Below, one piece after another: positions 33,358 through 41,248 of a stretch of DNA of 64,000 bases; position 1 is the first letter of the stretch, and each line of letters begins with the position of its first letter. The notes below the pieces were generated by a model. The model did no database searches, was not told the DNA's origin, and saw nothing but the letters and a program-made list of their open reading frames with translations. Position numbers and translations under genes: made by a program. Source of the DNA: Nocardioidaceae bacterium (lineage in GTDB: Bacteria; Actinomycetota; Actinomycetes; Propionibacteriales; Nocardioidaceae); NCBI GenBank assembly GCA_030655315.1, contig JAURVT010000042.1, forward strand, positions 62,001 through 126,000. Direction: 5' to 3'.

Positions 33358-34656
33358 TCAGCGGATTCGGAAGCGGGCGATCCGGGACACCGGGGTCGAG
33401 CCGATCCGGGTGAAGCCACCTGCGACCACGAGCCAGGGACCGATCACCGTCGCGCCGCTGATGCCGTTGTTGCGGGCGTCGTGGTTGCGCCCGCTGCCCG
33501 AGAAGTCGCTGCTGGGTGGCAGCCACCGGGTCTGGCGGCCGTCCGAGAGCCGGAAGAAGGCGCCCATCGTGCCGCAGCTGAATCGACCGCAGCCGCGCGC
33601 GTCCGTCACGGTGTTGGGGCCTCCGCGGTGCAGGCCGACGAACACCTGGTCCCTGACGATGGCGCAGACCTGGCCGTCACCGTCGATCTTGCGCGACCAC
33701 CCCTGCCGTCCGCTGCGACGGTCGACCGAGACGAGCCGGTTCTTCAGGCCGCCGGCGCATACCACGATGCGCTGGCGGCGCGTGTCGTGAGCGAGCGAGA
33801 GTGGGACCGTTCCGTCGTAGCGAGTACACCGACTGTTCTTGGCCAGCCTGGTCCTGAAATTCGACCGACTCGCCACGCTCCCGTTCCGAGCATTGATCCG
33901 GGCGAGGCCATGGTTTCTCGACACCGATCCGTCGGGTCCCTGCACGGAGTTGAAGAACCCGCCGACGTAGACCGAACCCGCGGCGTACAACGCGGTTCGG
34001 ACTCCGCCGCAGCTCCCGCGCACCGCCCACCGGACCTTTGCGGTGGAAGGGGAGACGCTTCGAAGCGTGGCGCTCGCGGCGACGAGGATCTGACGAGGCG
34101 CGGCGGAGATGTCGGACACCGCAGCGGCTGAGGGAAGCTGCCACCGGTCGACACGGACGCGGAGTCCGTCCCCGCGCGGGGTGACCTCGACCATCGCCGT
34201 GCGTCGCCGGACCGATCCGAGCACGCGGGTGAACGAGCCCCCGAGGTAGACCTTGGCCGATCGACCACCGGCGGTGGGGCGGCACAACGCGGTCTGGACG
34301 AACCCCGCATCAAACCGATCACCCGACTTCTTGCCTCGCCTGCCGGAGACGGTCACCCGGCCGAGGGCCCGTCCAGAGTCCGCATCGACGAACCAGACCC
34401 GCGCAATTCCCGGCCGGGCCCGAGCGGCGGTGTACTGGGTGATGTCGCCCGTGACCACGAGGACGCGGCGTCCCCCGATCCGGCAGGAGTCGAGGGCACC
34501 GCCGTTCTGACCAGTGAGCGCGCCGAAGGGCGACGGGGTGCTGGACACCGGCGCGGCACCGCGGGGCGTGGGCGCGCTCGGTGCGGCCGATGCCGATCCC
34601 GGCGAGAGTCCGAGGACGAGGAGAACTCCGCAGAGCAGGGCGAGAAGGCGCGACAT
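33358..34656 (-). CDS. Secreted beta-propeller-like protein of unknown function
   Basis: This 432-residue protein has a Sec signal peptide (MSRLLALLCGVLLVLGLSPG, cleaved near ASA-AP at about residue 27). The mature part is made of repeated beta-rich blocks of about 45 residues with the pattern KVYLGGSFTRVLG..RR, SVYVGGFFNSVQG, WLVVAGGFTRIGSTPV. This recurring GGxFxxxxG is typical of delta-60/PQQ-like propeller blades. Several cysteine pairs suggest disulfides. The ATG at 34656 has GGAGG seven bases upstream. Codon use is slightly less GC-biased than in its neighbours. It sits beside secreted nuclease genes but on the opposite strand from endonuclease I. I see no catalytic motif, and substrate binding is a guess. 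Confidence 0.75.
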   Translation of the reverse strand: MSRLLALLCGVLLVLGLSPGSASAAPSAPTPRGAAPVSSTPSPFGALTGQNGGALDSCRIGGRRVLVVTGDITQYTAARARPGIARVWFVDADSGRALGRVTVSGRRGKKSGDRFDAGFVQTALCRPTAGGRSAKVYLGGSFTRVLGSVRRRTAMVEVTPRGDGLRVRVDRWQLPSAAAVSDISAAPRQILVAASATLRSVSPSTAKVRWAVRGSCGGVRTALYAAGSVYVGGFFNSVQGPDGSVSRNHGLARINARNGSVASRSNFRTRLAKNSRCTRYDGTVPLSLAHDTRRQRIVVCAGGLKNRLVSVDRRSGRQGWSRKIDGDGQVCAIVRDQVFVGLHRGGPNTVTDARGCGRFSCGTMGAFFRLSDGRQTRWLPPSSDFSGSGRNHDARNNGISGATVIGPWLVVAGGFTRIGSTPVSRIARFRIR

Positions 34657-34763
34657 CGGGGTCCTCCGGCAGGGCGTCGCCGGGGGCGTCCGGCGAGCGA
34701 ACACTATGCGAAGTCCAGGCCTCCCGCGGTTTGATCCGCCCGGGTCGCGGGTACTGCCTGCCC

Positions 34764-35555
34764 ATGCACACGACCCCCTCACGCCGACCGCACCTGCGGC
34801 GGCTCGGCGCGCTCCTGGCCGCCGTCGGACTCACCACCACCCTCGCGGCGACGCAGGCGCTCCCCGCGCAGGCCGCCGACTACTACGACCCGGTCTCGGG
34901 GCTCTCCGGCGCCGCGCTCGAGTCCGGGCTCCACGACCTGGTCGACGGCAACCGCACGCTGTCGTACGCCCAGGTGTGGGACGGCCTCAAGGCCACCGAC
35001 CAGGACCCCTCCAACGCGAGCAACGTGCGGCTGCTCTACTCCGGGACCTCGCGCGCGAAGTCCGCCAACGGCGGCAGCACCGGTCAGTGGAACCGCGAGC
35101 ACGTCTGGGCCCAGTCGCACGGCGACTTCGGCACCTCGGCCGGCCCCGGCACCGACCTGCACCACCTGCGCGCCGCCGACGTCGGCGTCAACGGCACCCG
35201 CGGCAACAAGGACTTCGACGACGGCGGGTCGTCGGTGTCGGCGGCGCCGGGCAACTTCACCGACAGCGACTCCTGGGAGCCGCGCGACGCCGACAAGGGC
35301 GACGTCGCGCGGATGATCCTCTACATGTCGGTCCGCTACGAGGGCGACGACGGCCGTCCCGACCTCGAGGTCAACGACCGGGTCTCCAACGGCTCGGCCC
35401 CGAACCACGGGCGGCTCTCGGTGCTCAAGCAGTGGCACGCCGAGGACCCGCCCGACGCCTTCGAGCGCCGCCGCAACGAGCTGATCTTCAGCACGTACCA
35501 GGGCAACCGGAACCCCTTCGTCGACCACCCGGAGTACGTCGAGTCCATCTGGTGA
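34764..35555 (+). CDS. Secreted endonuclease I (EndA/NucM family)
   Basis: This 263-residue nuclease has a twin-arginine-like or long Sec signal (SRRPHLRRLGALLAAVGLTT, cleaved near AQAAD at residue about 38). The mature enzyme carries the His-Me finger motif WNREHVWAQSHG (catalytic His), then DLHHLRAADVGVNGTRGNKD, which binds the metal, and the C-terminal NRNPFVDHPEYVESIW typical of the family. It cuts DNA (and often RNA) nonspecifically outside the cell. TACTGC lies six bases before the ATG, so a leaderless start is plausible. A strong stem-loop follows the gene. Together with the next two genes it suggests use of extracellular DNA. Confidence 0.93.
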   Translation: MHTTPSRRPHLRRLGALLAAVGLTTTLAATQALPAQAADYYDPVSGLSGAALESGLHDLVDGNRTLSYAQVWDGLKATDQDPSNASNVRLLYSGTSRAKSANGGSTGQWNREHVWAQSHGDFGTSAGPGTDLHHLRAADVGVNGTRGNKDFDDGGSSVSAAPGNFTDSDSWEPRDADKGDVARMILYMSVRYEGDDGRPDLEVNDRVSNGSAPNHGRLSVLKQWHAEDPPDAFERRRNELIFSTYQGNRNPFVDHPEYVESIW

Positions 35556-35703: not shown

Positions 35704-38517
35704 TCAGCGGCAGCTGACCCCCGCGTAGGACAGCGTGTAGGTGCGGCTGGCGGGGTTGCCGTCGTTGTAGGCGTACGTGCGGACGCTCGCCTGACCGGCC
35801 GGGACCACGCGCCTGCCCGTGGCGAACAGCGCGTACGCGGCGCGACGGGGCGCGATGCCCGGTCGGGTCGTGGTGCCGTACGGGGTGGTCAGCCGGACGT
35901 TGTCCAGCCGACCGGCGCCGTCGTTGTAGGCGTAGACCGCCACGTGGGCCCTCGGACCGATGCAGAACGCGCGCGCCGTCGCCCTGACGGTCGGGGCGGG
36001 CGGCGTGGGCCGGACCGTCCCGAACCCGACGACCACCGGGTCGTGGTCGCTGGAGCGGAAAGGCGACTCGTCGTACAGGTTCGTCGCGTTGTAGTTGAAG
36101 CGGCTGTACTCGTTCGCGATCGGCTCGACCGAGTTGATGTTCCAGACGTCGAGGCCGGTCACCTTCGCGGCGGCCGCGGGCGAGGCGTAGACGTGGTCGA
36201 GCGAGCCCACCTGGCCGTCGAAGAGGTAGGTCTCGTCGGCGTCGTAGCGGCTCTCGAGGTCGACGTACCCGGCGTCCTTCAGGATCTGCACCGGGTCCTC
36301 GGCGGAGTAGGAGTTGAAGTCGCCCGAGAGGAACAGCTGGTCGGTGCCGGCCTCGGCGGAGAACTGCTTCGCGAACTCCACCAGCGCCGTGGCCTGACGG
36401 TTGCGCGAGGCCACGGACCCGCCCTGGCCGTCTCCGGTGTCGGCGTCGTCACCGTCACCGCTGCCCTTGGACTTGAAGTGGTTGACGATCACGGCGAAGC
36501 GGTCGGCGGCCGTCCCACCCGTGGGGACGAACGTCTGGGCCAGCGGCTCGCGGGCGTTGGCGAAGGCGGGCGACCCGACGAGCACCTTCGAGGCGCCGAC
36601 CGTGCTGACCTTGGCCTTGCGGTACACGAAGGCGAGGCGGATGACGTCCTGGTCGGCCGTCGGGGGCAGCACGGCGGGCGAGCGCACGTAGTCCCAGACC
36701 TGGCTGCCGGCAGCCTCGTTGAGCGCGGCGGTGAGCGTCGCCAGGGCGGCGTCGCGGTCCTGGCCGAACACCACGGAGTTCTCGATCTCCTCGAGCCCGA
36801 CGACGTCGGCGCCGAGCGCGTTGATCGCGGTGACGATCTTGACCTCCTGGCGTGCCAGGTTGGCCGCGTCGGCGGCGCCTCTCGGGCCGCTCCCGTCGGC
36901 GCAGCGGTTGACCGTGATCTTGTTGCCGTCGCGGTCGGTGTAGTAGGTGCAGGTGGTGCCCGCGCTCGCCGCGTAGTCCTCGCCCGTGGTCGGGAAGTAG
37001 TTGAGGACGTTGAAGCTGGCGATCTTCACCCGGCCGCCCACGTCGGCGGGCGCCGAGGTCCGCGTCTGCTCGAAGGTGGCGGGCTGCACGGCGTCGGCGT
37101 TGGCGGCCGTCAGCTGCTCGGTGGGCTGGAAGTTCCAGCCGTCGAAGCGGTAGTCCAGGATCACCGGCTCGGTGAACGTGACCGCGGCGCCGACGCGCAC
37201 CTGGGTGCCGGCGGCCAGGTACGGCAGCGGGATGCCCTTGTTGGCGGCGGAGTTGAAGTTGGTGGTCGCTCCGTCGTCGAGCGTGACGGCACGCGCCGCG
37301 TTGTCGGCGGCCTGCGCGGCGGCCTCGGGGCTGCCCGGACGGGCGACCTCGGTGGGTGCGACGAGCGGGGTCGTGCCGGACGCGAGCCCGAGCGAGCCGA
37401 AGTAGTTGGTGTCGTAGTTGTCGGCGATCGTGTAGTCGCCCTGCGGCGCGACGAGCATGCCCTCGAGCGACTCGCGCTGGGCCTCGGTGCGCGGGTAGGC
37501 CACCGTCGCGGGCTTGACGGCCGCGGCGGGCTCGTCGAGCACGCGGAACGACGCCAGGCTGACCTGGGTCTGGCCGTTGAACTCCCCGGCCGTGCCGGTC
37601 ACCTCGACGTGGTCGCCGACCCTCGCGCCGGACGCGAGGGCGTCACCGAAGACGAACACGCCGTCGGAGGCGCGCTGCGTCGACAGGTCGACGTCGCCGC
37701 CGGTGCCGGCGGTCTGCACGAACGCGCCGCGGAACCCGCCGGTCGGGTAGGCGGCGGTGACCACACCGGTGGTCGTGACGACGGTGCCGGCCAGGGGCGT
37801 GGTGTCGCCGGTGCCCTGGATCTCGGCGATCGTCGCGTCCTGCGGGTCGGGCTCGGGCTCGGGGTCCGGGTCGGTGCCGCCGCCGGCGCTGTTGGCGGGC
37901 GTGATCGTCGCGGAGAGAGCGAAGTCCGTGGCGTTGTCGTCGGTGTCCCTGCCGTCGGCCGCGCGGTTCAGCGAGCGCACGTCGGTGTTGCCGGTGGGCG
38001 GGGTGGCGGCCCTGGTCTCGAAGGTGTTGGACGAGCCGTAGCCGAGCAGGTCGACGACCGAGCCGCTGCCCGTCAGCGACCCGGTCGGCAGCGTGACGGC
38101 GCCCGAGGTGCGCACCAGGGCCAGGGTGCCGTTGGTGCCGCTCGGGTTGATGCTGCCGCTCGCGTCGGGGGTGGGGAGCGCGGCGCCGTTCGTGCCGTTG
38201 CTGCCACCGGCGACGAGGTAGTGCCCCCGGGCCGGGACCGAGCCGCTGAGCGTGACCGGGTTGGTGCCCGCCCCGGTGCCGGTGGCCGAGCGGTACTGCA
38301 GCGACCAGCCGGTCACGTCGACCGGTGCCGACGTCGGGTTGTAGAGCTCGACGAACTTGTTGGTGTAGGCGGCGCCGGCGCTGCCGCCGGACAGGTACGC
38401 CTCGCTGATGACGACGCCGGTGGCGTCGGGCGCCGCGGTGGCCGCCGAGACGGGCAGGGCGGCGAGGGCACCGGCGACGAGCGCCAGCGACGTGCCGAGA
38501 CGGGGGAGGGATCTCAT
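35704..38517 (-). CDS. Large secreted nuclease: LTD, OB-fold, EEP nuclease and C-terminal repeat domain
   Basis: This 937-residue protein has a signal peptide (cleaved near ATAAPD, residue about 29). A lamin-tail domain (LTD, about 32-165: VVISEAYLSGG, VELYNPTSAPVDVTGWSLQY) comes next, then an Asp/Pro/Glu linker and a YhcR-type OB-fold (about 227-335). The endonuclease/exonuclease/phosphatase domain runs from about 495 to 835, with KIASFNVLNYF, VVGLEEIEN, VNHFKSKG, LSGDFNSY, SLDHVYAS and SSDHDPVVVGF supplying the metal and catalytic residues. This matches the ExeM/NucH extracellular nuclease type. The last 90 residues form a separate beta-rich domain that also occurs twice in the neighbouring 5'-nucleotidase. 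No sorting signal is visible. It probably degrades DNA outside the cell. Confidence 0.92.
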   Translation of the reverse strand: MRSLPRLGTSLALVAGALAALPVSAATAAPDATGVVISEAYLSGGSAGAAYTNKFVELYNPTSAPVDVTGWSLQYRSATGTGAGTNPVTLSGSVPARGHYLVAGGSNGTNGAALPTPDASGSINPSGTNGTLALVRTSGAVTLPTGSLTGSGSVVDLLGYGSSNTFETRAATPPTGNTDVRSLNRAADGRDTDDNATDFALSATITPANSAGGGTDPDPEPEPDPQDATIAEIQGTGDTTPLAGTVVTTTGVVTAAYPTGGFRGAFVQTAGTGGDVDLSTQRASDGVFVFGDALASGARVGDHVEVTGTAGEFNGQTQVSLASFRVLDEPAAAVKPATVAYPRTEAQRESLEGMLVAPQGDYTIADNYDTNYFGSLGLASGTTPLVAPTEVARPGSPEAAAQAADNAARAVTLDDGATTNFNSAANKGIPLPYLAAGTQVRVGAAVTFTEPVILDYRFDGWNFQPTEQLTAANADAVQPATFEQTRTSAPADVGGRVKIASFNVLNYFPTTGEDYAASAGTTCTYYTDRDGNKITVNRCADGSGPRGAADAANLARQEVKIVTAINALGADVVGLEEIENSVVFGQDRDAALATLTAALNEAAGSQVWDYVRSPAVLPPTADQDVIRLAFVYRKAKVSTVGASKVLVGSPAFANAREPLAQTFVPTGGTAADRFAVIVNHFKSKGSGDGDDADTGDGQGGSVASRNRQATALVEFAKQFSAEAGTDQLFLSGDFNSYSAEDPVQILKDAGYVDLESRYDADETYLFDGQVGSLDHVYASPAAAAKVTGLDVWNINSVEPIANEYSRFNYNATNLYDESPFRSSDHDPVVVGFGTVRPTPPAPTVRATARAFCIGPRAHVAVYAYNDGAGRLDNVRLTTPYGTTTRPGIAPRRAAYALFATGRRVVPAGQASVRTYAYNDGNPASRTYTLSYAGVSCR

Positions 38518-38583
38518 CGGGTGTGCTCCAGGGAGAGGGGGGAGGAACCAGGAGGAAGCGGACGGCCGGCGACGCGACCGTCA

Positions 38584-38633
38584 GAGCTGTCGGTGCCTCG
38601 ACGCCCTATAGGGCGTTGAGGCACCGACAACTC
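38584..38633. terminator. 50-bp hairpin between 5'-nucleotidase and nuclease genes
   Basis: Twenty-five bases on each side of the centre at 38608/38609 pair with two mismatches (GTGCCTC-GACGCCC and GGGCGT-TGAGGCAC form the core). It starts nine bases after the nucleotidase stop. There is no T-run; it may end the nucleotidase transcript, since the downstream nuclease gene begins only 67 bases further on. Confidence 0.6.
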
Positions 38634-38641
38634 GTGGGTCG

Positions 38642-41248
38642 TCAGCGGGCGGGGAAGGAGACGGGGAGCTCGCGGTAGTAGCCCCGGCCGTCGACGTACT
38701 TGTAGGCCGCGACCACGCCCCGGCTCGCGCGGGTGGAGGCCTTGCCGGTGGGGACCACGAAGTAGGCGGCCTTGCCGGGCTTGACCTGCCGGGCGGCGGA
38801 GTCGCCGACCGCGGTCTTGAGGCGGACGCTGACGGCCTGCGCGCCGCGGTTCACGTAGTACCCGGTCAGGTAGACCTTCCCGTGGGCGCGGTAGCTGTTG
38901 CCGTTCGCGACGCCGCGCGGGGCGACGGTCGCGGTCAGCGCCGAGTACGGCGCGTCGTAGACCTTGTAGTAGCCCTGGCCGCCGACGTACTTGTACGTCG
39001 CGACCTTGACGACCCCGGCCGGCACGGTGCCCCGGCCGGTGCGGAACTCGTGGTACGCGGCCTTGCCCGGCGCGACCTTGGAGAACTTCTTTGTGGTGCC
39101 GTCCGGCAGGGTGAAGCGGACGTCGAGCGGCACCGTGTCGGTGTTGCGGGCGTAGGCGGCCACGACGACCGTCTCGGTCCTGGTGTCGGCCTTGGACCGC
39201 GCGTTCACCTGCGCCGACGGCGGGCCGGTCTCGGGAGCCGGGGCGGCGGTGACGGCGAGCGGCACCCGCACCACGGTCCCGCTGGGCGCGGCGGTGAGGA
39301 CGAGCGTCGCCGCCCCGGCCGCGGCCGAGGCCGGGACGGTGAGCGAGACGTCGGCCGCGCCGGCGCTCACCGGGGTGCTGCCGAGATCGGTGGTGGTCCC
39401 GCCCTGGACGAGCTGCGCGGTCACGGAGGTGTTCGCCGGGCTCCCGGCGGACGTCAGGTCGAGCCTGGACAGCGCGACCGTGGTGGCCGCACCGGCCTCG
39501 ACGGTGGTGGGCAGCGCTCCCGCGGCGACGGCGCGGCGCGCGAAGGACGGCTCCAGGCCGGGGTTGGCCTTCAGGTAGGCGACCCAGCCGTCGAAGTCGA
39601 CCAGCCCGGAGTCCTGCGGGTTCGTCCCGTCGCGGAACACCCGGAAGTTGTCGCCGCCCTGCTGCAGGAAGCTGAAGGTGCCGACGCGGTAGCCCCGGGC
39701 CGGGTCGACGGGCTCGCCGCCGATGCTGAGGGACGTGACGTGCGAGCCCTGCGCGGCGGCGGGGTCGTAGGTGTAGGAGACGTTGTCGGACAGGCCGAGC
39801 TGCAGGAACGCGCGCGAGGGCACCGTGCCGTCGGCGTTGGTCTGCCACTGCTGCTCGAGCATCGTCTTCAGCTGTGCGCCCGTGAGGGTGGTGGTGTTGA
39901 GGTTGTTGGCGAACGGGAGGACGTTGTTGGCCTCCTCGGCCGTCACCGGCCCCGCGTCCAGGTCGGCCCGCAGGCCACCGGGGTTGACGACGCCGATCTC
40001 GGCGCCGCCGAGGCGCTCGGGGGCGAGCGTGTCGCGCAGCGCGTTGCCCACCAGGTTGCCCAGCGTGGACTCGCTGGCGCGGTCGTCGAGGTTGGTGCCC
40101 AGCTGGGCCCGGGTGATGGCGGCGTCGGTGGACCCGACCTGGACGCTGCCGATCTCCTTCGCCTTCGCCACGGCGGCGTCGACGATGCGCTTCACGTCCG
40201 CGAGCACCGGGTACTGGCCGATGAGCGTGGCCGGGGCGACGTTGGCGATCCGCTTGACGTTGCCCTTGGTGTAGCCGGTGACGTCGCCGGTGTCGGGGTC
40301 GACGCTGAGCTTGATCTGGCCGACGTTGTCGCCGTAGCTGCCGGTCTGGACGATCGGACGGGTGCCCGTGCCGCCGGGCACCGGGCCGTCGAACGCGTAC
40401 TCCTTGTGCGTGTGGCCGGTGAAGATCGCGTCGACCTCGGCCGAGGTCTGCGTGGCGATCTTCGCGAAGACGCCGCCGCGGGCGATCTCGGCGTCGATCG
40501 TGCCGACGCCGGTGGTGCTGTCGCCGCCCGCGCCCTCGTGGTACTCCGCGACGACCACGTCGGCCTCGCCGTTGGTGGCGTCGCCGTCGGACAGCTCCTC
40601 GGCCACGCGGTTGACCGCGTCGACCGGGTCGCCGAAGTCGAGGTCCGCGATGCCGTCGGGCGAGACCAGCGCCGGCGTCTCCTGCGTGATGGCGCCGATG
40701 ACGCCGACCGTGACGCCGTTGACGTCGAAGGTCTCGTACGCCTTCAGGGCCGGCGTGGTGGTGCCCTTCTGGTACACGTTCGCGCCGAGGTAGCTGAAGT
40801 CGGCGGCCGGCTCGACGCGGTCGGTCAGGTCGCTGGAGCCGCGGTCGAACTCGTGGTTGCCGACGGCGCTCGTCCGCAGCTTCAGCGCGTTCAGCACGTC
40901 GATGGTCGGCTGGTCCTGCTGCGACGACGAGGCGTAGAGCGAGGCGCCGATGTTGTCGCCGGCGGACAGGAAGAGCGTGCTGGCCGCACCGGACTCGGCG
41001 CGCAGCTTCTCGATCGTCGCGGCGAAGGTCACGGTGCCGGAGTAGGTGGTGACGCCGTTGGCCGTGGCCGCCGCCTCGGGGGCGATGCGGCCGTGGAAGT
41101 CGTTGATGTTCAGCAGGTTCACCGTGACGGGGTCGGCGGCCTGCGCGGGGGAGGAGACGGCCAGGACCGTCAGGGGGGCGGCGACGAGGGCGACGACCGC
41201 GGCGAGCGCCGTCGTCCTCCGCGTCCGGTGGGGGGCGGGATGCGGCAC
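38642..41248 (-). CDS. Secreted 5'-nucleotidase/2',3'-cyclic phosphodiesterase with duplicated C-terminal domain
   Basis: This 868-residue enzyme of the UshA/NadN type has a signal peptide (to AQAAD, residue about 38). The metallophosphatase domain (about 40-330) has NINDFHGRI, SAGDNIGAS, GNHEFDRGS and GHTHKEYAF as metal ligands. The 5_nucleotid_C domain (about 350-540) binds the substrate base, with NPGGLRADLDAG and EANNVLPFANNL. An Ig-like segment (about 590-680) follows, then two copies of a 90-residue domain (about 681-772 and 773-868), both ending in a TYKYVGGQGYYK-like motif. It would release phosphate and nucleosides from nucleotides made by the neighbouring nucleases. GAAGGAG precedes the ATG. 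Confidence 0.93.
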   Translation of the reverse strand: MPHPAPHRTRRTTALAAVVALVAAPLTVLAVSSPAQAADPVTVNLLNINDFHGRIAPEAAATANGVTTYSGTVTFAATIEKLRAESGAASTLFLSAGDNIGASLYASSSQQDQPTIDVLNALKLRTSAVGNHEFDRGSSDLTDRVEPAADFSYLGANVYQKGTTTPALKAYETFDVNGVTVGVIGAITQETPALVSPDGIADLDFGDPVDAVNRVAEELSDGDATNGEADVVVAEYHEGAGGDSTTGVGTIDAEIARGGVFAKIATQTSAEVDAIFTGHTHKEYAFDGPVPGGTGTRPIVQTGSYGDNVGQIKLSVDPDTGDVTGYTKGNVKRIANVAPATLIGQYPVLADVKRIVDAAVAKAKEIGSVQVGSTDAAITRAQLGTNLDDRASESTLGNLVGNALRDTLAPERLGGAEIGVVNPGGLRADLDAGPVTAEEANNVLPFANNLNTTTLTGAQLKTMLEQQWQTNADGTVPSRAFLQLGLSDNVSYTYDPAAAQGSHVTSLSIGGEPVDPARGYRVGTFSFLQQGGDNFRVFRDGTNPQDSGLVDFDGWVAYLKANPGLEPSFARRAVAAGALPTTVEAGAATTVALSRLDLTSAGSPANTSVTAQLVQGGTTTDLGSTPVSAGAADVSLTVPASAAAGAATLVLTAAPSGTVVRVPLAVTAAPAPETGPPSAQVNARSKADTRTETVVVAAYARNTDTVPLDVRFTLPDGTTKKFSKVAPGKAAYHEFRTGRGTVPAGVVKVATYKYVGGQGYYKVYDAPYSALTATVAPRGVANGNSYRAHGKVYLTGYYVNRGAQAVSVRLKTAVGDSAARQVKPGKAAYFVVPTGKASTRASRGVVAAYKYVDGRGYYRELPVSFPAR

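Follow-up and report, generated by a model that had tools for sequence, protein, structure and literature searches.

We conclude that the nuclease and the 5′-nucleotidase encoded next to each other in the window (the entire 64,000 nt stretch of DNA analysed) end in an unnamed, probably Ig-like accessory module which, as judged from sequence, occurs widely at the C-terminus of enzymes secreted by actinobacteria, for the most part glycosidases. Neither of the family libraries tested, Pfam and NCBIfam, has a name for it. On balance, we lean slightly towards this domain being a non-catalytic retention module appended to the C-terminus of secreted enzymes; the retention itself, a polyanionic ligand and a part in nutrient scavenging are all things that we infer.

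The two carrier enzymes and their copies of the domain are listed in Table 1, with the copies placed in the window by profile matches. The nuclease scored 575 bits against NF033681 (cut-off 300), which assigns it to the ExeM/NucH family, and its matches to PF00932 and PF03372 both exceeded their own Pfam cut-offs. The nucleotidase is of the UshA/CD73 type and matched many 5′-nucleotidase structures; its Metallophos and 5_nucleotid_C domains were found above cut-off in Pfam (PF02872, 124 bits; PF00149, 30.1 bits). Inspection of both translations showed an LPXTG motif followed by a hydrophobic helix and a basic tail at the end of neither protein. The endonuclease I gene is convergent to the nuclease gene and represents a third secreted DNase gene, giving a small extracellular DNA-degradation locus. 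Endonuclease I likely shares a pathway with the nuclease and the nucleotidase, namely the use of extracellular DNA. Between the stop codon of the nucleotidase and the start of the nuclease lies a near-perfect palindrome of 40 bases (38589-38628), present as a single copy in the window.

Table 1. Secreted enzymes of the locus and domain copies within them (window positions).
Feature	Position	Strand	Length	Remarks
Secreted endonuclease I	34581..35555	+		PF04231, E 1.2e-35; domain copy absent
ExeM/NucH-family extracellular nuclease	35704..38517	-	937 aa	Signal peptide, lamin-tail domain, EEP nuclease, C-terminal domain
Domain copy of the nuclease	35707..36003	-		Residues 839-937; Cys 852, Cys 936; net charge +10
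Secreted 5′-nucleotidase	38642..41248	-	868 aa	Metallophosphatase and 5_nucleotid_C, one Ig-like region (~590-672), two C-terminal domain copies
Nucleotidase domain copy 1	38927..39223	-		Both cysteines absent; charge about +7
Nucleotidase domain copy 2	38645..38923	-		Reaches the stop codon; both cysteines absent; charge about +12

The initial annotation had aligned, by eye, the end of the nuclease with two successive blocks that close the nucleotidase. The open reading frames are as it gave them, the motifs it quoted are present in the blocks, and homology was confirmed by local alignment: the nuclease copy, covering roughly its last 95 residues, shares 40% identity with copy 1 over 98 aa (score 143, Z 18) and 29% with copy 2 over 91 aa (score 89, Z 9), while copies 1 and 2 are 35% identical over 77 aa (score 102, Z 12). 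None of 2000 shuffles matched any of the three pairwise scores (shuffle means of about 32, maxima of 59–68). Structure prediction, which the initial annotation had also proposed, gave one fold throughout, with AlphaFold2 placing seven strands in identical order in all three copies. Mean pLDDT was 93 for the nuclease copy, for which the run was based on four sequences only, and 86 for the nucleotidase tandem, with loci from whole-genome searches excluded from these predictions. In Foldseek, the best match reached an E-value of 3.9e-3 and a TM of about 0.55, with none at E ≤ 1e-3. The three blocks are copies of one all-beta, probably Ig-like domain of about 93 residues. A profile search of the window genome detected these three copies only, besides one extra candidate with an E-value of 0.45.

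Family libraries were searched for a name. Against Pfam, none of 26 diverse copies scored above a curated cut-off; with E-values of up to 10 admitted, the copies returned scattered chance matches only, and a weak match to the phospholipase C C-terminal domain (PF05506, E 0.045) appeared in two of the 26. The window copies had no match in NCBIfam. PDB sequences yielded no firm match, with designed Ig proteins as the sole matches, and no relative of the domain was detected in viral contigs and phages. The initial annotation had not recognised the module as a named domain, and its absence from Pfam and NCBIfam agrees with this. In its predicted all-beta architecture of seven strands, with an Asn located at the end of a strand as well as a PG turn, the domain resembles Ig-like accessory domains (Big, CARDB, NPCBM-associated), in which these two features are common. 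It differs from them in lacking a Pfam match, in its conserved N- and C-terminal Cys pair and in being almost always the last module.

The first copy outside the window was found at the end of a GH127 arabinofuranosidase of Micromonospora in one public-genome scan. A four-row profile then detected the domain in 36 of the 395 genomes sampled from the class, with up to 12 copies per genome. Essentially no other carrier was found among 342 genomes of the window's own family, where the profile gave weak matches only. Four of these relatives (E 4e-4 to 0.01) were followed up with an iterated profile, which returned nothing in three and a partial match of 37 residues in one. Of 48 whole proteins, 19 have GH43, which makes it the most frequent catalytic domain, and GH95, GH20, GH59 and sugar dehydrogenases also occur; related copies were found on GH39, on a subtilase and on another ExeM/NucH nuclease. 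Since the secreted enzymes scanned as hosts come from a wide range of unrelated catalytic families, the domain itself is not catalytic. The initial annotation had held that neither enzyme family normally carries the module. This applies to the nucleases and nucleotidases retrieved from family- and order-level relatives, in none of which the domain is present, but not to a distant ExeM/NucH nuclease (L079, 1294-4269), which has a homologue; here, a divergent copy separates the nuclease from RTX calcium-binding repeats.

Among 96 distinct copies, 92 end no more than two residues from the stop codon. The non-terminal exceptions are the first tandem copy of the nucleotidase, one copy in front of CBM5/12 (two modules), one in front of RTX and one ending 6 residues short. 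A processed sorting signal was considered and rejected: the terminal position fits, but the tandem copies and the copies preceding CBM5/12 and RTX speak against cleavage at the domain. Of the 96 copies, 90 have two cysteines, one near the start and one at the end, and six, among them the two nucleotidase copies, have neither; no copy has one alone. That the cysteines are always paired or absent points to a disulphide. The conserved residues are mostly Gly, Asn and Pro; those that are Asn or Gly look structural in nature and mark no binding site. Extreme C-terminal position, paired cysteines and this kind of conservation would suit an inert cap or spacer, i.e., a disulphide-closed Ig-like domain which shields the C-terminus from proteolysis and has no ligand. 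However, we regard such a cap as improbable, because the close linkage to one downstream gene family and the charge remodelling on the window enzymes (both described below) suggest a specific interaction.

In a phylogenetic tree, the three window copies and five others form a divergent subgroup on long branches, which splits from the 88 canonical copies with support of 95/86. As the bootstrap is unsettled and the window copies are long-branched, only this split of 8 versus 88 was used, and with caution. The window copies are strongly basic (+7 to +12, Table 1) compared to the canonical ones (mean −0.8, SD 3.6, maximum +5, n = 88), a pattern spotted post hoc, and the enzyme bodies which carry them have charges of −44 and −33. 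In addition, there are 10–11 aromatic residues in each window copy, as compared to 4.8 on average in the canonical ones. Canonical glycosidase copies are not basic and, therefore, charge is not a family-wide mechanism. Both basicity and aromatic content could indicate a substrate-binding module for DNA or glycan, in which case the terminal hairpin of the window copies, being basic and rich in Tyr, would bind DNA and raise the local substrate concentration. Nucleic acids or nucleotides are the substrates of both enzymes, and a related copy precedes CBM5/12 modules in one locus (L062). Nevertheless, a 5′-nucleotidase does not need to bind polymeric DNA, and among the carriers glycosidases predominate, whose copies are neutral and which often possess CBMs already. 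We thus consider a substrate-binding role rather unlikely.

The tails of orthologous enzymes bear on retention. In related genomes, orthologous nucleases and nucleotidases have Ig-like repeats, LPxTG, RTX, other domains or nothing in place of the domain. The last 100 residues of the closest nucleotidase orthologues are basic (+10 to +33) and not homologous to the domain, and nuclease tails with Ig-like repeats in relatives range from −3 to +25. In close relatives, the orthologous enzymes frequently end in Ig-like tails which are basic yet unrelated to the domain. Hence, the tail position is interchangeable and often basic in the window lineage. On the other hand, a basic tail is not essential, as the nucleases of some relatives have no tail or one that is acidic or near-neutral. 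ExeM/NucH nucleases and UshA/CD73-type 5′-nucleotidases with C-terminal anchors (GG-CTERM, LPxTG) are comparable in their catalytic families and in a tail able to hold the enzyme at the surface; the tail of the window enzymes differs in being this domain and not a transmembrane, sortase or RTX tail. Two further observations concern these relatives. In several family relatives, the ExeM/NucH nuclease and the 5′-nucleotidase are fused, nuclease first, in one frame of 1327-2485 aa (L091, L096, L098, L116, L118; relatives G030, G034, G005); the window has separate genes in the opposite order. In one family related at the order level, a stop codon directly follows LP(S/R/Y)TG(V/A) in nucleases and nucleotidases, which lack the hydrophobic helix required by a sortase signal. 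This was seen at five of five loci checked (L094, L097, L124, L125, L126), where the other frames held no continuation.

Gene neighbourhoods were compared in other genomes. On plasmids of Clavibacter and Cellulosimicrobium, genes for domain-carrying enzymes adjoin genes for a secreted protein of about 210 aa and for a DUF916 protein. Of 35 genomes searched, 27 contain DUF916, and 15 of 64 DUF916 matches have a domain copy no more than 6 kb away (0.63 expected). A profile of the ~210-aa protein gave 43 strong matches, 25 of which have a domain copy no further than 1 kb away. With the loci used for building the profile excluded, 20 of 38 strong genes remain within 1 kb, all downstream and on the same strand (0.15 expected). 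Members of this family are located directly 3′ of the enzyme genes (L066, L068, L071, L074, L076, G513), and more distant homologues adjoin DUF916 genes without the domain. The ~210-aa protein obtained no family name from our searches, and the Pfam WxL family matched neither it nor the domain. The recurrent row of enzyme, ~210-aa protein and often DUF916 suggests an actinobacterial surface-complex cassette.

This order, recurring in many genomes, raises the possibility of a docking module, in which the domain is recognised by two proteins encoded next to it, one small and secreted and the other a membrane protein with DUF916 (WxLIP-type), as in the csc/WxL clusters of Lactobacillus. It is further supported by DUF916 (WxLIP_PGBD) being found in 27 of 36 domain-positive genomes versus 55 of 359 others (raw counts, uncorrected for kinship) and by a proposal for Firmicutes in which DUF916-DUF3324 proteins act as surface binders of WxL proteins (PMC10599100). 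The WxL/WxLIP csc clusters of Lactobacillus and Enterococcus share with these genomes the row of a secreted enzyme that has a dedicated C-terminal domain, together with a small secreted protein and a DUF916 membrane protein, as well as the link to carbohydrate use (PMC1534035, PMC10599100), to which csc clusters have been tied (PMC1534035). In contrast to them, domain and small protein have no Pfam WxL match, the one DUF916 protein scanned lacks a match to HBD (DUF3324), and the window genome has no DUF916 match. Profile searches found neither partner in the window genome, both are absent from G390, G501 and G715, genomes with other copies of the window subgroup, and several genomes with canonical copies also have no strong partner. 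A text search joining DUF916, glycoside hydrolases and Actinobacteria returned nothing beyond a honeybee-gut genome paper. As a general explanation, we rate docking as quite conceivable, if somewhat short of an even chance; the canonical copies, taken by themselves, are likely to dock to a surface complex.

The initial annotation had offered surface anchoring or the binding of DNA or glycan as possible roles; neighbouring genes in other genomes and the replacement tails of relatives favour retention. Because their partners are missing, the window copies more likely attach electrostatically, to wall polymers or DNA, than dock. The window nuclease and nucleotidase together would convert extracellular DNA to nucleosides and phosphate. 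A strongly basic, Tyr-rich beta-sandwich tail may hold each acidic enzyme on a polyanionic surface, which could be a cell-wall polymer or the DNA itself, so that products would be set free near the cell. Tentatively, and with rather low confidence, we propose that the domain is the docking end of an undescribed, WxL-like enzyme-display system comprising the ~210-aa protein and DUF916, and that the window lineage moved it to DNA-scavenging enzymes as a basic tail without partners.

Thus, a recurrent C-terminal module on actinobacterial secreted hydrolases is nameless in the family libraries tested. Its link to a small secreted protein and to DUF916 offers a testable route to how actinobacteria may keep polymer-degrading enzymes at their surface, and the linked row of three genes could be a new surface-display system. 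In the window, the same module is found shifted to a nuclease and a nucleotidase, with its charge altered.
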